Source of the DNA: Mycetohabitans endofungorum
Lineage (GTDB): Bacteria > Pseudomonadota > Gammaproteobacteria > Burkholderiales > Burkholderiaceae
Direction: 5' to 3'
Assembly (NCBI RefSeq): GCF_037477895.1
Contig: NZ_CP132744.1
Coordinates: 2,294,001-2,358,000 of the forward strand
DNA: 64,000 bases
Position numbers and translations under genes: made by a program. Shown here in pieces: positions 1 to 11,239 of the stretch (position 1 is its first letter; each line of letters opens with the position of its first letter). The notes beneath the pieces were generated by a model. It was not told the DNA's origin. It was given only the letters and a program-made list of their open reading frames with translations, and made no database searches.

Positions 1-2696
1 GTCTCGGACATCAACCCGATGCGGGCCGCCTCACGCAGCAACGCGATGTTACCGGTGTTGCGCCGCAGTACGGGATGCGCGCCGGCATGCAGCAGCACCC
101 AGTACTGGACGATGAACTCGATGTCCACCATGCCGCCGCGATCGTGCTTCAGATCGAACAGCGCTGTGGGATTGGGATGGCCTTCGGCCACCTTTTGCCG
201 CATCGCGGCAATCTCCGTGGCCAGCACCCGCGCATCGCGCGGCTGAGCGAGCACCTGGGCACGGATCGCATCGAACTGCGCGCCGATGCGCACATCCCCG
301 GCACAGAAGCGCGCGCGCGACAACGCCTGATGCTCCCATACCCACGCGGTGTTGGCGGCATCCCCCTCGCGCAATTGGTACCGTCGGAAGGCGGCGAGGC
401 TCGTGACCAGCAGCCCGGCCTCGCCGTTCGGCCTAAGCCTCAGATCCACATCGAACAGCGTGCCGGCGCCAGTGGACATGGTCAGCCACGTGATCAGCCG
501 CCGCGCGAACAGCGCGTAGATCTCTGCGGCACACTCATCGGGATCGTCGTACAGAAAGATGAGGTCCAGGTCTGACGCATAACCGAGCTCCTTACCGCCG
601 AGCTTGCCGTACGCAATGATTGAGAAGCGCGGCACGTCGCAATGACGGCGAGCCAACTGCGGCCATACGGTCTGCAGCGTCACATCCAGGACCGCGTCGG
701 CCAGTTCCGACAACCGGTCGCTGATGTGCTCGACCGATAGATGACCCCTGAGATCCAGCAGCAGGATCCGGAACACCTCAGCCTGGTGCGCGTGACGCAG
801 CAAATCCATCTGATGCTCAGTGCCGTCTGCATCAGCAAGCCGGGCGAGCAGCATCCGCTTGAACTCGGTCCAGTCGAACGGGCTCACCAGCGCCTCGTCG
901 TCGAGCAACTCGTCGAGCACCTGCGGATGGCGAATCAGATAGCCGGCAGCCCAACGCGACTCGCCGAGCACGGCGAACACGCGTGCCAGCGCAGCCGGAT
1001 ACTCAACCAGCAACGCCAGGTACGAGCCACGCCGCGCGACCGCTTCGAGCAGATCGAGAAAACGCAGCAACGTCGCATCGGCCCTTTCATTGCAATGCGT
1101 CGGCGTCGCCTCCAATGCACGCAGCACGAGCTTGTCGAAACGCGTCCGATGCCGTTCCGGCAGGCCGGCGTAGCGCGCAGACTGCCAGACCGCATGCAAT
1201 CGCGACAGGATGGCTGGCGGGTCGTTGAACCCCAGCGATGCAAGCCGAGTGCGCAACTCATCGTCGGCTGCCTCATCGGCGAGTGCACTGCTCCAAATCC
1301 ATGTGGCGGTCTCCTCCCACGCTGTGCTGCCAATCTTGCCGAGCGCCTGATCGCCTGCGCCGGCCGGCGCCGCCGCGTCGCCACGCTTGTCCGCGAAGAT
1401 CTGGTCAAACTGCTGCCCGACGAACGCGCGGTGGCGCTCCAGCACAGCCAGTAGTGCCCGATAGTCAGCAAAACCGAGTGATGCTGCCAGTTGCGTGCGC
1501 TCGCCTTCATCGACAGGCATCGCATGGGTTTGCGCGTCGTTCACGTATTGCAACCGGTGCTCGATGCAGCGCAGCATTTGATACGCCTGTGCGAGTCGCT
1601 GAACCGCGCCACGCGCTATCAAGCCGCGCGCCGCGGCATGATCGAGTACCGCCAGCGTCGGCCGGATACGGAACCCGGCGTCTTGACCGCCCCGGATCAA
1701 TTGGAAGACCTGCGCGGTAAACTCGATCTCGCGGATGCCGCCGCGACCTAGCTTGATGTCATCGGCCTTGTCGCGGCGCGACGACGCGCGGCGGGTGGCC
1801 TCCTGACGGATCTGCACATGCAGCGCCCGGATCGCCGCAATCACGCCGAAATCGAGATAACGGCGATAGACGAACGGCCTGACCTGTGCATCAAGTTGCG
1901 CCGCCAGTCGCGCGCCGGCGTCGCTACCCACGTCCGACACCAGCCGTGCCTTGATCCACGCATAGCGTTCCCATTCGCGCCCCTGCACATAGAAGTACTC
2001 CTCCAGCATGCCGATGCTGCAGACAAGCGGACCTGAATCGCCGTTTGGACGCAGCCGCATGTCCACGCGGAACACGTGTCCGTGCGCGGTATGCTCGGCC
2101 AGCGCACCGATCAACCGGCGCCCGACTCGGGTGAAGAAGTCTTGGTTTGAGATCGGCGCGCGGGAGCCGCCCTCGGTTTCGCCGTCGTCCTCGTAGACGA
2201 AAATCAAGTCGATGTCCGAAGACACGTTCAACTCGCGTCCGCCGAGCTTGCCCATGCCGACCACTCCGAGCGTCTGCGGCTGTCGCTGCGCGTTCAGCGG
2301 CATGCCATACAGCGCGTGCAACTCGGCACTGATCGAGGCAAGGGCGCGGCGGATCGCCACCTCGGCCAAATCCGTCATCGCGCCGGTCACCTCCGACACA
2401 TCGGCCAACCCGGCCAGGTCGCGCTCCATCACCGCGCAGAATAGCTCGGTGCGCACCAGGCGCAGTGCGCGCTTGAGCACGTTGTCGTCTACGGGCTCGT
2501 CCTGCGGCGCACCCAGTTGCGCGAGCCGCTGCTCGATCCATTGCCGCGTCAGCGGCGCGCGCGCAAGTTCACGCACCCGCGCAGCCAGTTCAGGCCGTGC
2601 CGCGTACTGCCGGACGGCATAGCGAGAATAGACGGCGCTCAACAGCGGTTCGGCGTCGGAAGCAAGCGGGGAACTTGGCGGCGGCATGTCAGTCAT
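1..2696 (-). CDS. glnE: Bifunctional glutamine synthetase adenylyltransferase/deadenylase (3'-truncated by window edge)
   Basis: GlnE attaches AMP to, and removes it from, glutamine synthetase (GlnA) in response to PII, tuning ammonia assimilation in the cytoplasm. Reading the minus strand from the ATG at 2696 gives about 898 codons without a stop, running off the window start; full GlnE proteins are about 920-950 residues, so only the extreme C-terminus is missing. Two nucleotidyltransferase repeats are visible: GMGKLGGRELNVSSDIDLIF in the N-terminal half and AYGKLGGKELGYASDLDLIF in the C-terminal half, each with the G-x-S/A-D-x-D metal-binding signature. RGGIREIEF and DRGGMVDIEF, the usual GlnE helical-domain motifs, follow each. 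It is divergent from yhdP. A second ATG three codons in (2687) is an alternative start. Confidence 0.95.
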   Translation of the reverse strand, partial: MTDMPPPSSPLASDAEPLLSAVYSRYAVRQYAARPELAARVRELARAPLTRQWIEQRLAQLGAPQDEPVDDNVLKRALRLVRTELFCAVMERDLAGLADVSEVTGAMTDLAEVAIRRALASISAELHALYGMPLNAQRQPQTLGVVGMGKLGGRELNVSSDIDLIFVYEDDGETEGGSRAPISNQDFFTRVGRRLIGALAEHTAHGHVFRVDMRLRPNGDSGPLVCSIGMLEEYFYVQGREWERYAWIKARLVSDVGSDAGARLAAQLDAQVRPFVYRRYLDFGVIAAIRALHVQIRQEATRRASSRRDKADDIKLGRGGIREIEFTAQVFQLIRGGQDAGFRIRPTLAVLDHAAARGLIARGAVQRLAQAYQMLRCIEHRLQYVNDAQTHAMPVDEGERTQLAASLGFADYRALLAVLERHRAFVGQQFDQIFADKRGDAAAPAGAGDQALGKIGSTAWEETATWIWSSALADEAADDELRTRLASLGFNDPPAILSRLHAVWQSARYAGLPERHRTRFDKLVLRALEATPTHCNERADATLLRFLDLLEAVARRGSYLALLVEYPAALARVFAVLGESRWAAGYLIRHPQVLDELLDDEALVSPFDWTEFKRMLLARLADADGTEHQMDLLRHAHQAEVFRILLLDLRGHLSVEHISDRLSELADAVLDVTLQTVWPQLARRHCDVPRFSIIAYGKLGGKELGYASDLDLIFLYDDPDECAAEIYALFARRLITWLTMSTGAGTLFDVDLRLRPNGEAGLLVTSLAAFRRYQLREGDAANTAWVWEHQALSRARFCAGDVRIGAQFDAIRAQVLAQPRDARVLATEIAAMRQKVAEGHPNPTALFDLKHDRGGMVDIEFIVQYWVLLHAGAHPVLRRNTGNIALLREAARIGLMSE

Positions 2697-2813
2697 CGTG
2701 TCATTGGTACGGCATATGCAATGAAACCCTTGGCGGCGGTAGGTTTGACTCGCATGCCGTATGTTACATTTGGTTTTTCCGCCGCTCCTTATCATACGTT
2801 CCGCGCTCCTCGC

Positions 2814-7366
<4,553 letters not shown>

Positions 7367-7376
<10 letters not shown>

Positions 7377-8215: not shown

Positions 8216-8345
8216 GCGCACCGCAGCGTCGTTGCCCGCAAAGCGGCGGCGGCCCACACCGCTTCCAGCAGGGTCGCCCGCGGCTTGAATCGTGCCGTCG
8301 CAACGCCAATTTCTGTCCATTTACCAGTCAAACGGGCGAGCCCGC

Positions 8346-9812
8346 ATGAACATCATCGAACCAAACCTCTGCCACCTCGCCACCGCCAAGGACCTGCTGC
8401 TCACGCGCTACGGGCTCGATGAGGCCATTCTGGTGCGCACGCTGGGCGAGATTTTCTCCCATCGCGTTGACTACGCGGACCTGTACTTCCAAACAACCCG
8501 CAGCGAAGCGTGGAGCCTGGAGGAAGGCATCGTCAAATCGGGCAGCTTCAGCATCGACCAGGGCGTGGGCGTGCGCGCGGTGGCCGGCGAGCGCACCGCG
8601 TTCGCGTACTCGGATGACTTGTCGCCGCAAGCGCTGGCACAAGCCGCCCAGGCCACCCGCGCGATCGCCCGTGCGGGTGGCGGAAAGGTTCGCGTGCGGG
8701 CGGCCGGTGCGTTGCACGGCGTCGCGGGCCGCGACCTGTACCGGCCGGCCGATCCGCTGCACTCGCTGGATGCGAATGCAAAAGTGGCACTGCTGGAGCG
8801 CGTCGAAAAAATGGCTCGCGCGAAAGATCCACGCATCACCCAGGTCATGGCGGGCCTGGCGGGCGAATACGACGTCGTACTGGTGGCACGCAGCGACGGA
8901 GCACTGGCCGCCGACGTGCGTCCGCTCGTGCGCATGTCGGTCACCGTAATCGCCGAGCAGAACGGGCGCCGCGAAATCGGCACCGGCGGTGGCGGAGGCC
9001 GCTACGACTATGGCTACTTCACCGACGAAGTGCTGACGCGATACGTCGACGACGCGGTGCATGCCGCGCTGGTGAACCTGGAGGCACGCCCCGCGCCCGC
9101 CGGCACGATGACCGTCGTGCTCGGGCCGGGCTGGCCGGGCGTGCTGCTGCACGAGGCGATCGGCCACGGGTTGGAAGGCGACTTCAACCGCAAGGGCTCG
9201 TCGGCGTTCGCCGGACGCATCGGCGAGCGGGTCGCGGCCAACGGTGTCACGGTGGTTGACGACGGCACGCTGGCGAACCGGCGCGGCTCGCTGAACATCG
9301 ATGACGAGGGCAACCCCACGCAATGCACGACGCTGATCGAGGACGGCATCCTGACCGGCTACATACAGGACACGCTAAACGCGCGGCTGATGAAGATGAA
9401 GGTGACCGGTAACGCGCGGCGCGAATCGTATGCCGCGTTGCCGATGCCGCGCATGACCAACACCTACATGTTGGGCGGCGACAAAGATCCCGCCGAGATC
9501 ATTGCGTCGGTCGAGCATGGCCTGTACGCGGTCAATTTCGGCGGCGGACAGGTCGATATCACGAACGGCAAGTTTGTGTTTTCAGCCTCCGAGGCCTACA
9601 TGATCGAGAACGGCAAGATTGCCTATCCGGTCAAGGGCGCGACGCTGGTGGGCAGCGGACCGGAGTCGCTCAAGTACGTGTCGATGATTGGCAACGATAT
9701 GTCGTTGGACACAGGCGTGGGCGTGTGCGGCAAGGAAGGCCAGAGCGTGCCGGTCGGCGTCGGGCAGCCAACGCTGCGCATCGACCGCATGACGGTGGGT
9801 GGCACGGTATGA
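8346..9812 (+). CDS. tldD: Metalloprotease TldD
   Basis: TldD is the zinc-protease subunit of the TldD/TldE pair, which in E. coli processes microcin B17 and antitoxin CcdA. From ATG 8346 ([18 protein letters not shown]) the product is 488 residues, matching the family. The catalytic HExxxH-type motif is [12 protein letters not shown] at about residue 269, followed by the conserved KGSSAF and [20 protein letters not shown] regions. It is downstream of nit with a 130-bp gap. TldE/PmbA is not in this window. The track-type upstream extension to 8292 is less likely because the conserved N-terminus starts at 8346. Confidence 0.95.
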
Positions 9813-9893
9813 CGCCAATCACGCAGAAGCCGCAAGGGGGTTGCGGTTCTTATTGAAATGACGCAATCATGCGTCGTCGTTGACGGCCCTCTG

Positions 9894-9923
9894 TTGCCAA
9901 CGGGGGCTCGTCCAGAGTATAAA
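9894..9923 (+). promoter_or_regulatory. Probable sigma70 promoter for the aroG leader
   Basis: TTGCCA (9894-9899) and TATAAA (9918-9923) are separated by 18 bp, a good sigma70 match. Transcription would begin near 9930, about 45 bases before the leader peptide and 230 bases before aroG. It is a sequence match only. Confidence 0.55.
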
Positions 9924-9973
9924 GTCGATATAGTCGGAACCGACACCACCTTTCAATTCGTTTGCATTTCGCG

Positions 9974-10042
9974 ATGTCCGCCAAGTTTTACTTTTATTTC
10001 TTTTGGCATCTCAGGCCGCTGGCGGACCGAGAGGGTGGGTGA
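9974..10042 (+). CDS. Aromatic-amino-acid leader peptide (aroG attenuator)
   Basis: A 22-codon reading frame, ATG 9974 to TGA 10040-10042, encoding MSAKFYFYFFWHLRPLADREGG. Codons 5-11 are TTT TAC TTT TAT TTC TTT TGG: four Phe, two Tyr, one Trp with no interruption, exactly the three end products of the pathway begun by AroG. Chance occurrence in a GC-rich intergenic region is very unlikely. By analogy with pheL/trpL it would sense charged tRNA by ribosome stalling. No strong Shine-Dalgarno is visible; an in-frame TTG at 9962 is an alternative start. It is too short for ordinary gene callers. Confidence 0.85.
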   Translation: MSAKFYFYFFWHLRPLADREGG

Positions 10043-10103
10043 CGGATAAGCGAATTACCCCACATTCCCGAAAAACCGCCGGCTTCGCCTGGCGGTTTTT
10101 TTT
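9978..10103 (+). promoter_or_regulatory. Transcription attenuator of aroG (alternative hairpins 1:2, 2:3, 3:4)
   Basis: Segment 1 CCGCCA (9978-9983) can pair with segment 2 TGGCGG (10020-10025). Segment 2 extended, CTGGCGG (10019-10025), can pair with segment 3 CCGCCGG (10076-10082) as antiterminator. Segment 3 pairs instead with segment 4 CTGGCGG (10089-10095) in the terminator. Segments 2 and 4 are the identical 7-mer, so they compete for segment 3. Ribosomes stalled on the aromatic codons (9986-10006) would mask segment 1 and free segment 2, allowing read-through into aroG; completed translation would favour termination. The segments are read from the sequence; the mechanism is inferred by analogy. 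Confidence 0.8.
10071..10103 (+). terminator. Rho-independent terminator (attenuator) upstream of aroG
   Basis: Stem AAAAACCGCCGG (10071-10082) with CTGGCGGTTTTT (10089-10100), 12 pairs with one G-U, loop CTTCGC, then a run of eight T to 10103. It sits between the leader peptide and aroG on the same strand. Confidence 0.9.
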
Positions 10104-10162
10104 CGCCAGGCGCCAGGCCCCGAACACCGCGCGCGAGGCGCGTACCGTTGAACCGGAGAACA

Positions 10163-11239
10163 ATGATGGCCCTGCACAACACCGATGATGTTCGAATCCG
10201 CGAGCTTAAGGAATTGACGCCGCCCGCGCACCTGCTGCGGGAGTTTCCCTGCGAGGAGCGCGTCGCTGGCCTGATCTTCAACGCTCGCCAATCGCTGCAT
10301 CGGATTCTGCACGGCATGGACGACCGGCTCATCGTCGTGATTGGCCCGTGCTCGATCCACGACACGCGTGCGGCACTAGAGTACGCACAGCGCCTGGCGG
10401 AGCAACGCAAGCGCTTTGCCGGCGAATTGGAAATCGTGATGCGCGTGTACTTCGAGAAGCCGCGCACGACCGTGGGCTGGAAGGGGTTGATCAACGACCC
10501 CTACATGGACAACAGTTTCAAGATCAACGACGGATTACGTACCGCGCGCGAACTGCTAGTGCGAATCAACGCGCTCGGACTGCCCGCCGGCACGGAGTAC
10601 CTCGACATGATCAGCCCGCAATACATCGCCGATTTGATCTCGTGGGGTGCAATCGGCGCACGCACCACCGAATCGCAGGTGCATCGGGAACTGGCCTCTG
10701 GATTGTCGTGCCCGGTCGGCTTCAAGAACGGCACCGACGGCAACGTGAAAATCGCGGTTGACGCGATCAAGGCCGCTTCGCAGCCGCACCATTTTCTGTC
10801 GGTGACCAAGGGCGGTCATTCGGCGATCGTATCGACCGCTGGCAACGAGGACTGCCACCTCATCCTGCGCGGCGGCAAGACACCGAACTATGATGCAGCA
10901 AGCGTCGATGCCGCGTGCTCCGCGATCGGCAAGTCGGGGCTGGCGGCGCGATTGATGATCGATGCAAGCCATGCGAACAGCGAGAAGAAGCACGAAAACC
11001 AAATTCCGGTCTGCGCAGACATCGCTCGGCAAGTCGCCGCCGGCGACGAGCGCATTGTCGGCGTGATGGTGGAGTCCCATCTGGTCGCGGGACGCCAGGA
11101 TTTGAAAGACGGCTGCAAGTTGACCTATGGTCAGAGTGTCACCGACGCCTGCATCGGCTGGGATGATAGCGTGACGGTGCTCGAAGGACTAGCCAAAGCG
11201 GTCCGGCAACGGCGCATCGCACGCGGCAGCGGCAATTGA
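10163..11239 (+). CDS. aroG: 3-deoxy-7-phosphoheptulonate synthase (class I DAHP synthase)
   Basis: Catalyses condensation of phosphoenolpyruvate and erythrose 4-phosphate to DAHP, the first step of the shikimate pathway. From ATG 10163 it has 358 residues, like E. coli AroG (350). Class I landmarks: VVIGPCSIHD, RVYFEKPRTTVGWKG, NDPYMDNSFKIN, GARTTESQVHRE, FKNGTDGNVKIAVDA, KGGHSAIVSTAGN and DASHANSEKK. GGAGA at 10155-10159 is the ribosome site; the tandem ATG at 10166 is an alternative start. Which aromatic amino acid inhibits the enzyme cannot be told, but the attenuator in front contains Phe, Tyr and Trp codons, so expression probably answers to all three. Confidence 0.96.
   Translation: MMALHNTDDVRIRELKELTPPAHLLREFPCEERVAGLIFNARQSLHRILHGMDDRLIVVIGPCSIHDTRAALEYAQRLAEQRKRFAGELEIVMRVYFEKPRTTVGWKGLINDPYMDNSFKINDGLRTARELLVRINALGLPAGTEYLDMISPQYIADLISWGAIGARTTESQVHRELASGLSCPVGFKNGTDGNVKIAVDAIKAASQPHHFLSVTKGGHSAIVSTAGNEDCHLILRGGKTPNYDAASVDAACSAIGKSGLAARLMIDASHANSEKKHENQIPVCADIARQVAAGDERIVGVMVESHLVAGRQDLKDGCKLTYGQSVTDACIGWDDSVTVLEGLAKAVRQRRIARGSGN

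Follow-up and report, generated by a model that had tools for sequence, protein, structure and literature searches.

A probable ribosome-mediated attenuator precedes the DAHP synthase gene aroG in Mycetohabitans endofungorum and many of its Burkholderiales relatives

DAHP synthase is the entry point of carbon into aromatic synthesis, and in E. coli its genes are repressed by TyrR and TrpR. How might the corresponding gene, aroG, be controlled in Mycetohabitans endofungorum, a genome in which we found neither a TrpR match nor a TyrR-type HTH match? In one comparative study, the TrpR and TyrR regulon reconstructions described cover gammaproteobacterial lineages (PMC5343134). The window analysed here, a stretch of 64,000 nucleotides, contains aroG behind an intergenic stretch in which the original prediction placed an attenuator of the trp/phe type. 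The features of the locus are as follows.

8292-9812, + strand: tldD ORF, upstream neighbour of aroG
Between tldD and aroG, 350 nt: intergenic stretch holding promoter-like boxes, leader ORF and terminator
9894..9923, + strand: putative sigma-70 promoter, TTGCCA-18 nt-TATAAA, as read from the sequence
9974..10042, + strand: leader-peptide ORF of 22 codons, MSAKFYFYFFWHLRPLADREGG, with ATG at 9974, stop TGA at 10040-10042 and no Shine-Dalgarno sequence
9976..9983, + strand: segment 1, able to pair with 10020-10027 if the ribosome is absent; mainly a Burkholderia-clade trait
9986..10006, + strand: control codons TTT TAC TTT TAT TTC TTT TGG (F Y F Y F F W)
10018..10025, + strand: segment 2, the 5' strand of the antiterminator, within the leader ORF; its CTGGCGG (10019-10025) is identical to segment 4
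10076..10083, + strand: segment 3, with CCGCCGG at 10076-10082, common to antiterminator (2:3) and terminator (3:4)
10070..10103, + strand: intrinsic terminator, comprising the 3:4 hairpin (10070-10101) and a T-tract of eight T (10096-10103)
10089-10095, + strand: segment 4, the 3' arm of the terminator, CTGGCGG
10163..11239, + strand: aroG, class I DAHP synthase, the gene presumably under control, with Shine-Dalgarno CCGGAGA at 10153-10159
Opposite strand to aroG: corrinoid adenosyltransferase gene, neighbour of aroG

The product of 10163-11239 matches the NF006723 'AroG' model with 597.8 bits, the cut-off being 568. The 22-codon leader with seven aromatic codons in a row was borne out to the base, its coordinates exact, and every position originally given for segments 2, 3 and 4 and for the eight-T tract is correct. 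The run of seven is not a product of chance, since the single example in the window (any frame, either strand) compares with a mean of 0.00 in 100 first-order Markov versions; windows of five aromatic codons number three, as one run of seven yields, against 0.01 expected. Across the genome, shorter runs are less exceptional: a pattern of five Phe/Tyr codons, Trp excluded, was found at nine places, two of them the aroG leader, and the reversed pattern at 13. At many Burkholderia-clade loci a TATAAA box sits some 35-54 nt ahead of the leader ATG, and in most cases a TTGNCA-like box lies another 17-18 nt upstream; in the window, transcription would start near 9930, about 44 nt before the ATG. A stricter consensus scan of 9700-10300 listed no promoter and no terminator: the promoter went unlisted because the scan rule demands a -10 box ending in T, and the terminator was missed perhaps through pairing of the A-tract into the U-tract, which may leave few T after the stem. 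Elsewhere in the window, the ORF at 2517-7376, presumably a large AsmA-type protein, has long simple repeats at 6430-6700 that encode dipeptide runs of low complexity (NANANA, STSTST and NSNSNS).

Might the element be a ligand-binding riboswitch or a T-box, working otherwise than by ribosome stalling? Aromatic pathway genes of Firmicutes often use T-boxes, so that the idea has some precedent, but none of the 4227 families of Rfam release 15 matched the window at gathering score, the region 9850-10180 giving only E-values of 1.5-2.3 (sroD 15.1, cut-off 50; Leu_leader 14.9, cut-off 50; NsiR1 14.5, cut-off 39), and the conserved feature is a set of codons. We regard this explanation as exceedingly unlikely.

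The predicted RNA structures of the window differ in their stability relative to shuffled sequences. The terminator (10070-10101) reaches -19.5 kcal/mol with a z score of -3.9, none of 200 shuffles being equally stable. For the antiterminator (10018-10025 with 10076-10083) the z score, calculated on the whole 77-nt piece, is -1.3 and 23 of 200 shuffles are equally stable: as a single sequence, the window's own 2:3 hairpin is weak evidence. Pairing of segment 1 with segment 2, also predicted originally, is present in the window (9976-9983 with 10020-10027; z -2.5, matched by 1/200 shuffles) but does not appear to be a conserved part of the attenuator, since complementarity of at least 6 nt occurs in only 53 of 121 loci, mostly of the Burkholderia clade.

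The loci used for such comparisons comprised 80 named ones chosen by AroG similarity (the best 80 of at least 593), 31 from the source genome and 60 relatives, and 24 plus 80 from an order-wide search and its stretches, one of these last 80 (L212) belonging to the set of 60 relatives. In the comparison of sequences upstream of aroG that the original prediction called for, an aromatic ORF, a terminator and an antiterminator recur, at 122 loci in all (90 from the initial set of 111, 32 from the 104 added later), and a flanking base covaries; the sampling leans to Burkholderia. The 122 loci hold 118 different leader-to-terminator sequences, the identical pairs being L015/L018, L017/L019, L023/L096 and L026/L102, of which L026 and L102 are the same record. 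Entry required at least four aromatic residues in eight codons, and 102 of the 122 score 6-8. Loci lacking an ORF that scored 4/8 were left out, as were a paralogue (L002), a locus with its leader out of frame and an ORF running into the terminator (L016), a decayed locus (L091), two without terminator (L057, L066), one with only 54 nt of upstream sequence (L063), a duplicate of L022 (L094) and four weak chance matches (L156, L161, L162, L207). The leader of L028 and the terminators of L072, L164 and L166 were assigned by eye from the DNA. Leader start codons, ATG in 117 and GTG in five of the 122, were picked by script and some are doubtful; at L069, for instance, an upstream ATG is likelier than the chosen GTG.

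Named carriers include Burkholderia, Paraburkholderia, Caballeronia, Trinickia, Cupriavidus, Pandoraea, Collimonas, Janthinobacterium, Massilia, Duganella, Undibacterium (L055, not L057), Oxalobacter, Bordetella, Achromobacter, Advenella, Pelistega, Limnobacter and Lautropia; Oxalobacteraceae and Alcaligenaceae are among the groups represented. The order-wide draw took in 160 genomes, 126 of them with an AroG relative, and provided 106 AroG-type loci plus L213 (58% identity, sole match); 19 genomes having only distant AroG matches, at about 50% identity or less, were set aside. The element is present at 37 of these 106 loci and in 13 of 32 families (f1 3/5, f3 3/3, f4 3/4, f8 3/4, f10 3/3, f11 2/4, f12 1/1, f13 4/4, f20 3/3, f23 4/4, f39 1/1, f43 3/4, f49 4/4). 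It is absent from seven of the 44 AroG-type loci of the positive families (L113, L120, L131, L134, L186, L187, L189) and from all 62 loci of the other 19 families. It is also missing at L057, L103 and L109 and from the sampled Rhodocyclaceae, the loci of Thauera, Azoarcus, Sulfuritalea, Rhodocyclus and Dechloromonas that were checked all being negative. A crude search found a TldD-like motif upstream at 55 of the 122 loci, so the element seems untied to its tldD neighbour.

The best conserved part is the terminator pairing: among 88 loci, 87-88 show pairing of the core as well as of each flank. This is what would be expected of a fixed terminator next to an incidental ORF, with amino acids exerting no control; against that, an aromatic block is found at 122 loci (a score of at least 4/8 was itself the entry rule; 102 score 6-8), an equivalent run does not arise by chance, and the spacing from the block to segment 2 is kept. 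We consider a fixed terminator very improbable.

Conservation of the antiterminator is likewise evident. Its 2:3 helix beats 300 shuffles of the corresponding stretch at p<=0.05 in 96 of 122 loci, where 6 would be expected, and at p<=0.01 in 49, kinship being uncorrected; 26 loci miss p<=0.05. Segment 2 was taken as the strongest contiguous helix, an alternative GTGG register at 14 of 88 loci having been dropped as poorer. Variation within the CCGCC/GGCGG core is slight, and the covariation therefore comes from the bases beside it, again with kinship uncorrected. Among the 113 loci with an intact core, the position following CCGCC in segment 3 forms with segment 4 an A-T pair in 84, G-C in 19, T-A in 3 and G-T in 3, and is unpaired in 4, so that A, G or T in segment 3 is matched by T, C or A in segment 4 at 106. 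The flanking base of segment 2 forms a Watson-Crick pair with segment 3 at 72 of the 113, a G-T pair at 9 and no pair at 32: C stands opposite G in 11 of 22 loci and A opposite T in 3 of 4, while, of the 86 loci where A follows CCGCC, 28 show a base other than T (A, C or G) in segment 2. These last are mostly Oxalobacteraceae, which mostly pair the other flank instead (GGCGGT with ACCGCC). The flanking base thus changes concertedly between segments 3 and 4, and segment 2 follows in part.

The reading frame of segment 2 also differs between loci. Its GCGG lies in reading frame 0, 1 or 2 at 102, 12 and 8 loci, respectively, so GGCGG is read as ..G GCG G.. (PLAD, PKAVE), GGC GG. (TGG, AGG) or.GG CGG (RR, WRW). 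Since GGCGG persists while the peptide changes and all three frames are used, selection in the second half of the leader acts on the RNA. The same observation bears on a further explanation, that the terminated leader RNA or the peptide also acts in trans, like the Sinorhizobium rnTrpL/peTrpL pair. Termination would set free a small RNA, which in several lineages perhaps begins at or near the start codon as described for rnTrpL (PMC7298713), and the Burkholderia-clade peptide is very similar between species; the tail of the peptide nevertheless varies widely between families, GGCGG being kept, and we judge an additional action in trans improbable. As a separate observation, a Shine-Dalgarno-like GGAGAGG stands downstream of segment 2, either within the leader ORF or where it ends, at 10 of 122 loci (L021, L022, L024, L093, L095, L097, L098, L105, L195, L205), and a GAGAGG-related stretch is well conserved in the Burkholderia clade; GGAGAGG might perhaps belong to a longer antiterminator stem or be a pause site.

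Recurrence at 122 loci together with the covariation of the flanks favours the reading originally proposed, and we believe that the element is very probably a ribosome-mediated transcription attenuator of aroG. From the parts, their conservation and their geometry we infer a sequence of transcription start, leader translation, stalling and termination of the following kind. With charged Phe, Tyr and, for this lineage, Trp tRNAs in good supply, the ribosome would cross the aromatic block and segment 2 to reach the stop codon; with segment 2 covered, segment 3 would be left free, the 3:4 hairpin would form and the polymerase would halt at 10096-10103. If one of the aromatic tRNAs lacks its amino acid, the ribosome would stall within the block, its front edge not quite reaching segment 2, which would then grab segment 3 once this is made, delaying the terminator and allowing readthrough into aroG. 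Were there no translation at all, 1:2 (where present) and 3:4 would both form and transcription would end. As the arrangement recurs in many relatives, the element very probably turns the pathway on in aromatic shortage.

The front edge of a ribosome lies some 12-13 nt ahead of the A-site codon. Counted from the first nucleotide of the last aromatic codon, segment 2 lies 8-23 nt away, at least 11 in 113 of 122 loci and 11-20 in 110, where the search began directly after that codon and the minimum possible distance was 3. Given that reach, a ribosome with the last aromatic codon in its A site would leave segment 2 just free and, since segment 2 is inside the leader ORF, one that reads on must melt it. 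The consequences were modelled by folding the RNA after removal of everything up to the ribosome's front edge, with or without segment 4. With the ribosome at the last aromatic codon and segment 4 unmade, the minimum-energy fold is 2:3 at 114 of 122 loci (111 with the ribosome at the first). Once segment 4 is present, the terminator is preferred in 106 of 122 and 2:3 in only 16 even with the ribosome stalled; a ribosome at the stop codon gives the terminator in 122/122, an outcome built into the model wherever the footprint has already passed segment 2, and ribosome-free RNA does so in 121 of 122. Since 3:4, once complete, is in most cases the more stable of the two hairpins, antitermination must be kinetic: provided that the element is an attenuator, the folding model implies that readthrough would be won by timing.

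Which amino acids, then, are sensed? The original proposal that all three aromatics are sensed at once agrees with what this genome and its near relatives show, but it does not extend to the family, where F+Y is the rule. Ten-codon blocks at the 122 loci contain F+Y+W in 62, F+Y in 54, F+W in 3 and F alone in 3. This clade could sense all three, as could some others such as f49, which has FYFWF-like blocks, but not the family as a whole. As Trp codons occur in only 65 of the 122 leaders, Phe and Tyr would constitute the general signal. It may even be that the attenuator effectively senses Phe and Tyr, with the Trp codon of this lineage adding little, a narrower form of the main reading and compatible with it. 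F and Y occur together in 116 of 122 blocks, and W makes up just 8% of block aromatics (F/Y/W 63/28/8%) against 19% in the downstream AroG proteins (41/41/19%). At the position of the window's W some close relatives have another residue: S in Cupriavidus (L023, L024), A in Pandoraea (L026) and G in L087 and L100. Moreover, the C. glutamicum aroR leader contains Phe-Tyr-Phe and yet, according to PMC11802643, Phe is the sole amino acid whose limitation has an effect on it. On the other side, FYFYFFW, with its W nearest segment 2, is unchanged in Burkholderia, Paraburkholderia and Caballeronia at all but one of the 17 named loci, L016, which is out of frame. We find this narrower form plausible, though on balance not quite probable.

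Codon choice within the attenuator leader is also distinctive. TTT makes up 72% of leader Phe codons (391/542, 122 loci) against 19% in aroG (126/656, the 100 loci with enough sequence), the leader share being the higher in 95 of 100 loci; aroG genes prefer TTC. Low structure or slow wobble reading could be the cause.

The start of leader translation is less certain because a Shine-Dalgarno sequence is mostly absent. At 88 loci the median anti-Shine-Dalgarno pairing is -0.05 kcal/mol before the leader and -6.4 kcal/mol before aroG, and pairing of -4 kcal/mol or better is found for nine leaders compared with 78 aroG genes. Distances from the end of a TANNNT/TATAAA box to the leader start, taken over the 122 loci and compared with shuffles, show an excess at several positions: 26 boxes at 6-9 nt (about 7.5 expected), 10 at 25-26 nt (about 4), 34 at 35-37 nt (about 5) and seven each at 48 and 50 nt (about 2 each). 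A box ending 5-10 nt before the ATG is found at 27 of 122 loci, about 11 boxes being expected by chance, so some are accidental. This short-distance group includes Bordetella and Achromobacter, with TGTGCTAGAGT, and f49, with TGTGCTACATT. Such spacing suggests that transcription would start at or near the ATG, giving leaderless leader mRNAs, a state that may be ancestral; the window's own -10 box ends 50 nt before the ATG and does not suggest a leaderless start there. Only tentatively, and as something rather doubtful when taken as a whole, do we put forward the joint reading that the attenuator was ancestrally leaderless and is still mostly without Shine-Dalgarno sequence, pools the supply of charged Phe, Tyr and in some lineages Trp, favours TTT for sensing and replaces TyrR/TrpR repression in much of the Burkholderiales. 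If this were true, leaderless or Shine-Dalgarno-less initiation would tie aroG to the state of the ribosome as well as to amino acid supply.

Paralogues and reduced genomes provide contrasting cases. Several relatives carry a second DAHP synthase copy near 60% identity. The element is absent from the second DAHP synthase of the source genome (L002, G000:C2:8882-9925, on the smaller contig and 59% identical) and from the other distant copies L213, L214 and L215. In Candidatus Burkholderia humilis (L016) the leader is out of frame; in a 1.2-Mb genome of the same genus (L091) a TAG in place of the Trp codon truncates the leader and the terminator is weaker (-10.7 kcal/mol); and in a 1.9-Mb genome (L103) the leader is gone, aroG following within about 35 nt of tldD. 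Three more genomes of the genus, of 1.1-1.2 Mb, have no AroG match whatever. Decay in small or host-bound genomes is as expected if the control matters in free life, although the cases are few and larger genomes lack the element too.

A conserved attenuator would explain how the aromatic pathway is adjusted in a large group that includes plant symbionts and pathogens. The aroG leader is also a ready target for asking how one leader sums two or three amino acids and how translation of a Shine-Dalgarno-less or leaderless ORF keeps pace with the polymerase. We found no description of a leader before Burkholderiales aroG in the open-access literature, which was the scope of the search. The main text of a broad survey of premature terminators mentions neither aromatic nor DAHP nor phenylalanine (PMC2965389).

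Attenuators are described for E. coli pheA, pheST and trp (PMC11802643). The likeness to these lies in the run of control codons and the mutually exclusive terminator and antiterminator; those systems serve terminal branches or a tRNA synthetase, with one amino acid each. The element differs from the E. coli attenuators also in its layout, segment 2 being enclosed in the leader ORF and segment 1 preceding the control codons. Closer in target is the aroR leader of C. glutamicum aroF, a DAHP synthase gene, which has Phe-Tyr-Phe and responds to Phe, not Tyr, according to PMC11802643, reporting Neshat et al. 2014. It shares with the present element ribosome-mediated attenuation of DAHP synthase through a leader having Phe and Tyr codons but belongs to another phylum, whereas here we see 4-8 aromatics per eight codons, a W that only some lineages have, and an antiterminator with a conserved GGCGG. 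The uORFC-13-1 motif before Acholeplasma aroF (24 sequences from one genus and environmental samples) is similarly a predicted uORF attenuator with a terminator before a DAHP synthase gene, yet its further base-paired substructure sets it apart by description (PMC8632094). For tyrA operons, some of which include DAHP synthase genes, a 2005 paper lists putative upstream attenuators, Vibrio being among the cases (PMC1173090). Leaderless leader mRNAs with reported starts are those of trpL in S. meliloti (PMC7298713) and of ilvB in C. diphtheriae (PMC5784534); the likeness is in the leaderless attenuator leader, here predicted from -10 boxes only, while the amino acids and genes concerned are others. 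The mechanism would be classical, and what appears new is a leader that is mostly Shine-Dalgarno-less and preceded at 27 of 122 loci by the closely placed -10-like box. The aroG element therefore looks like a separate, widespread case standing next to the DAHP-synthase attenuators of Corynebacterium and Acholeplasma.
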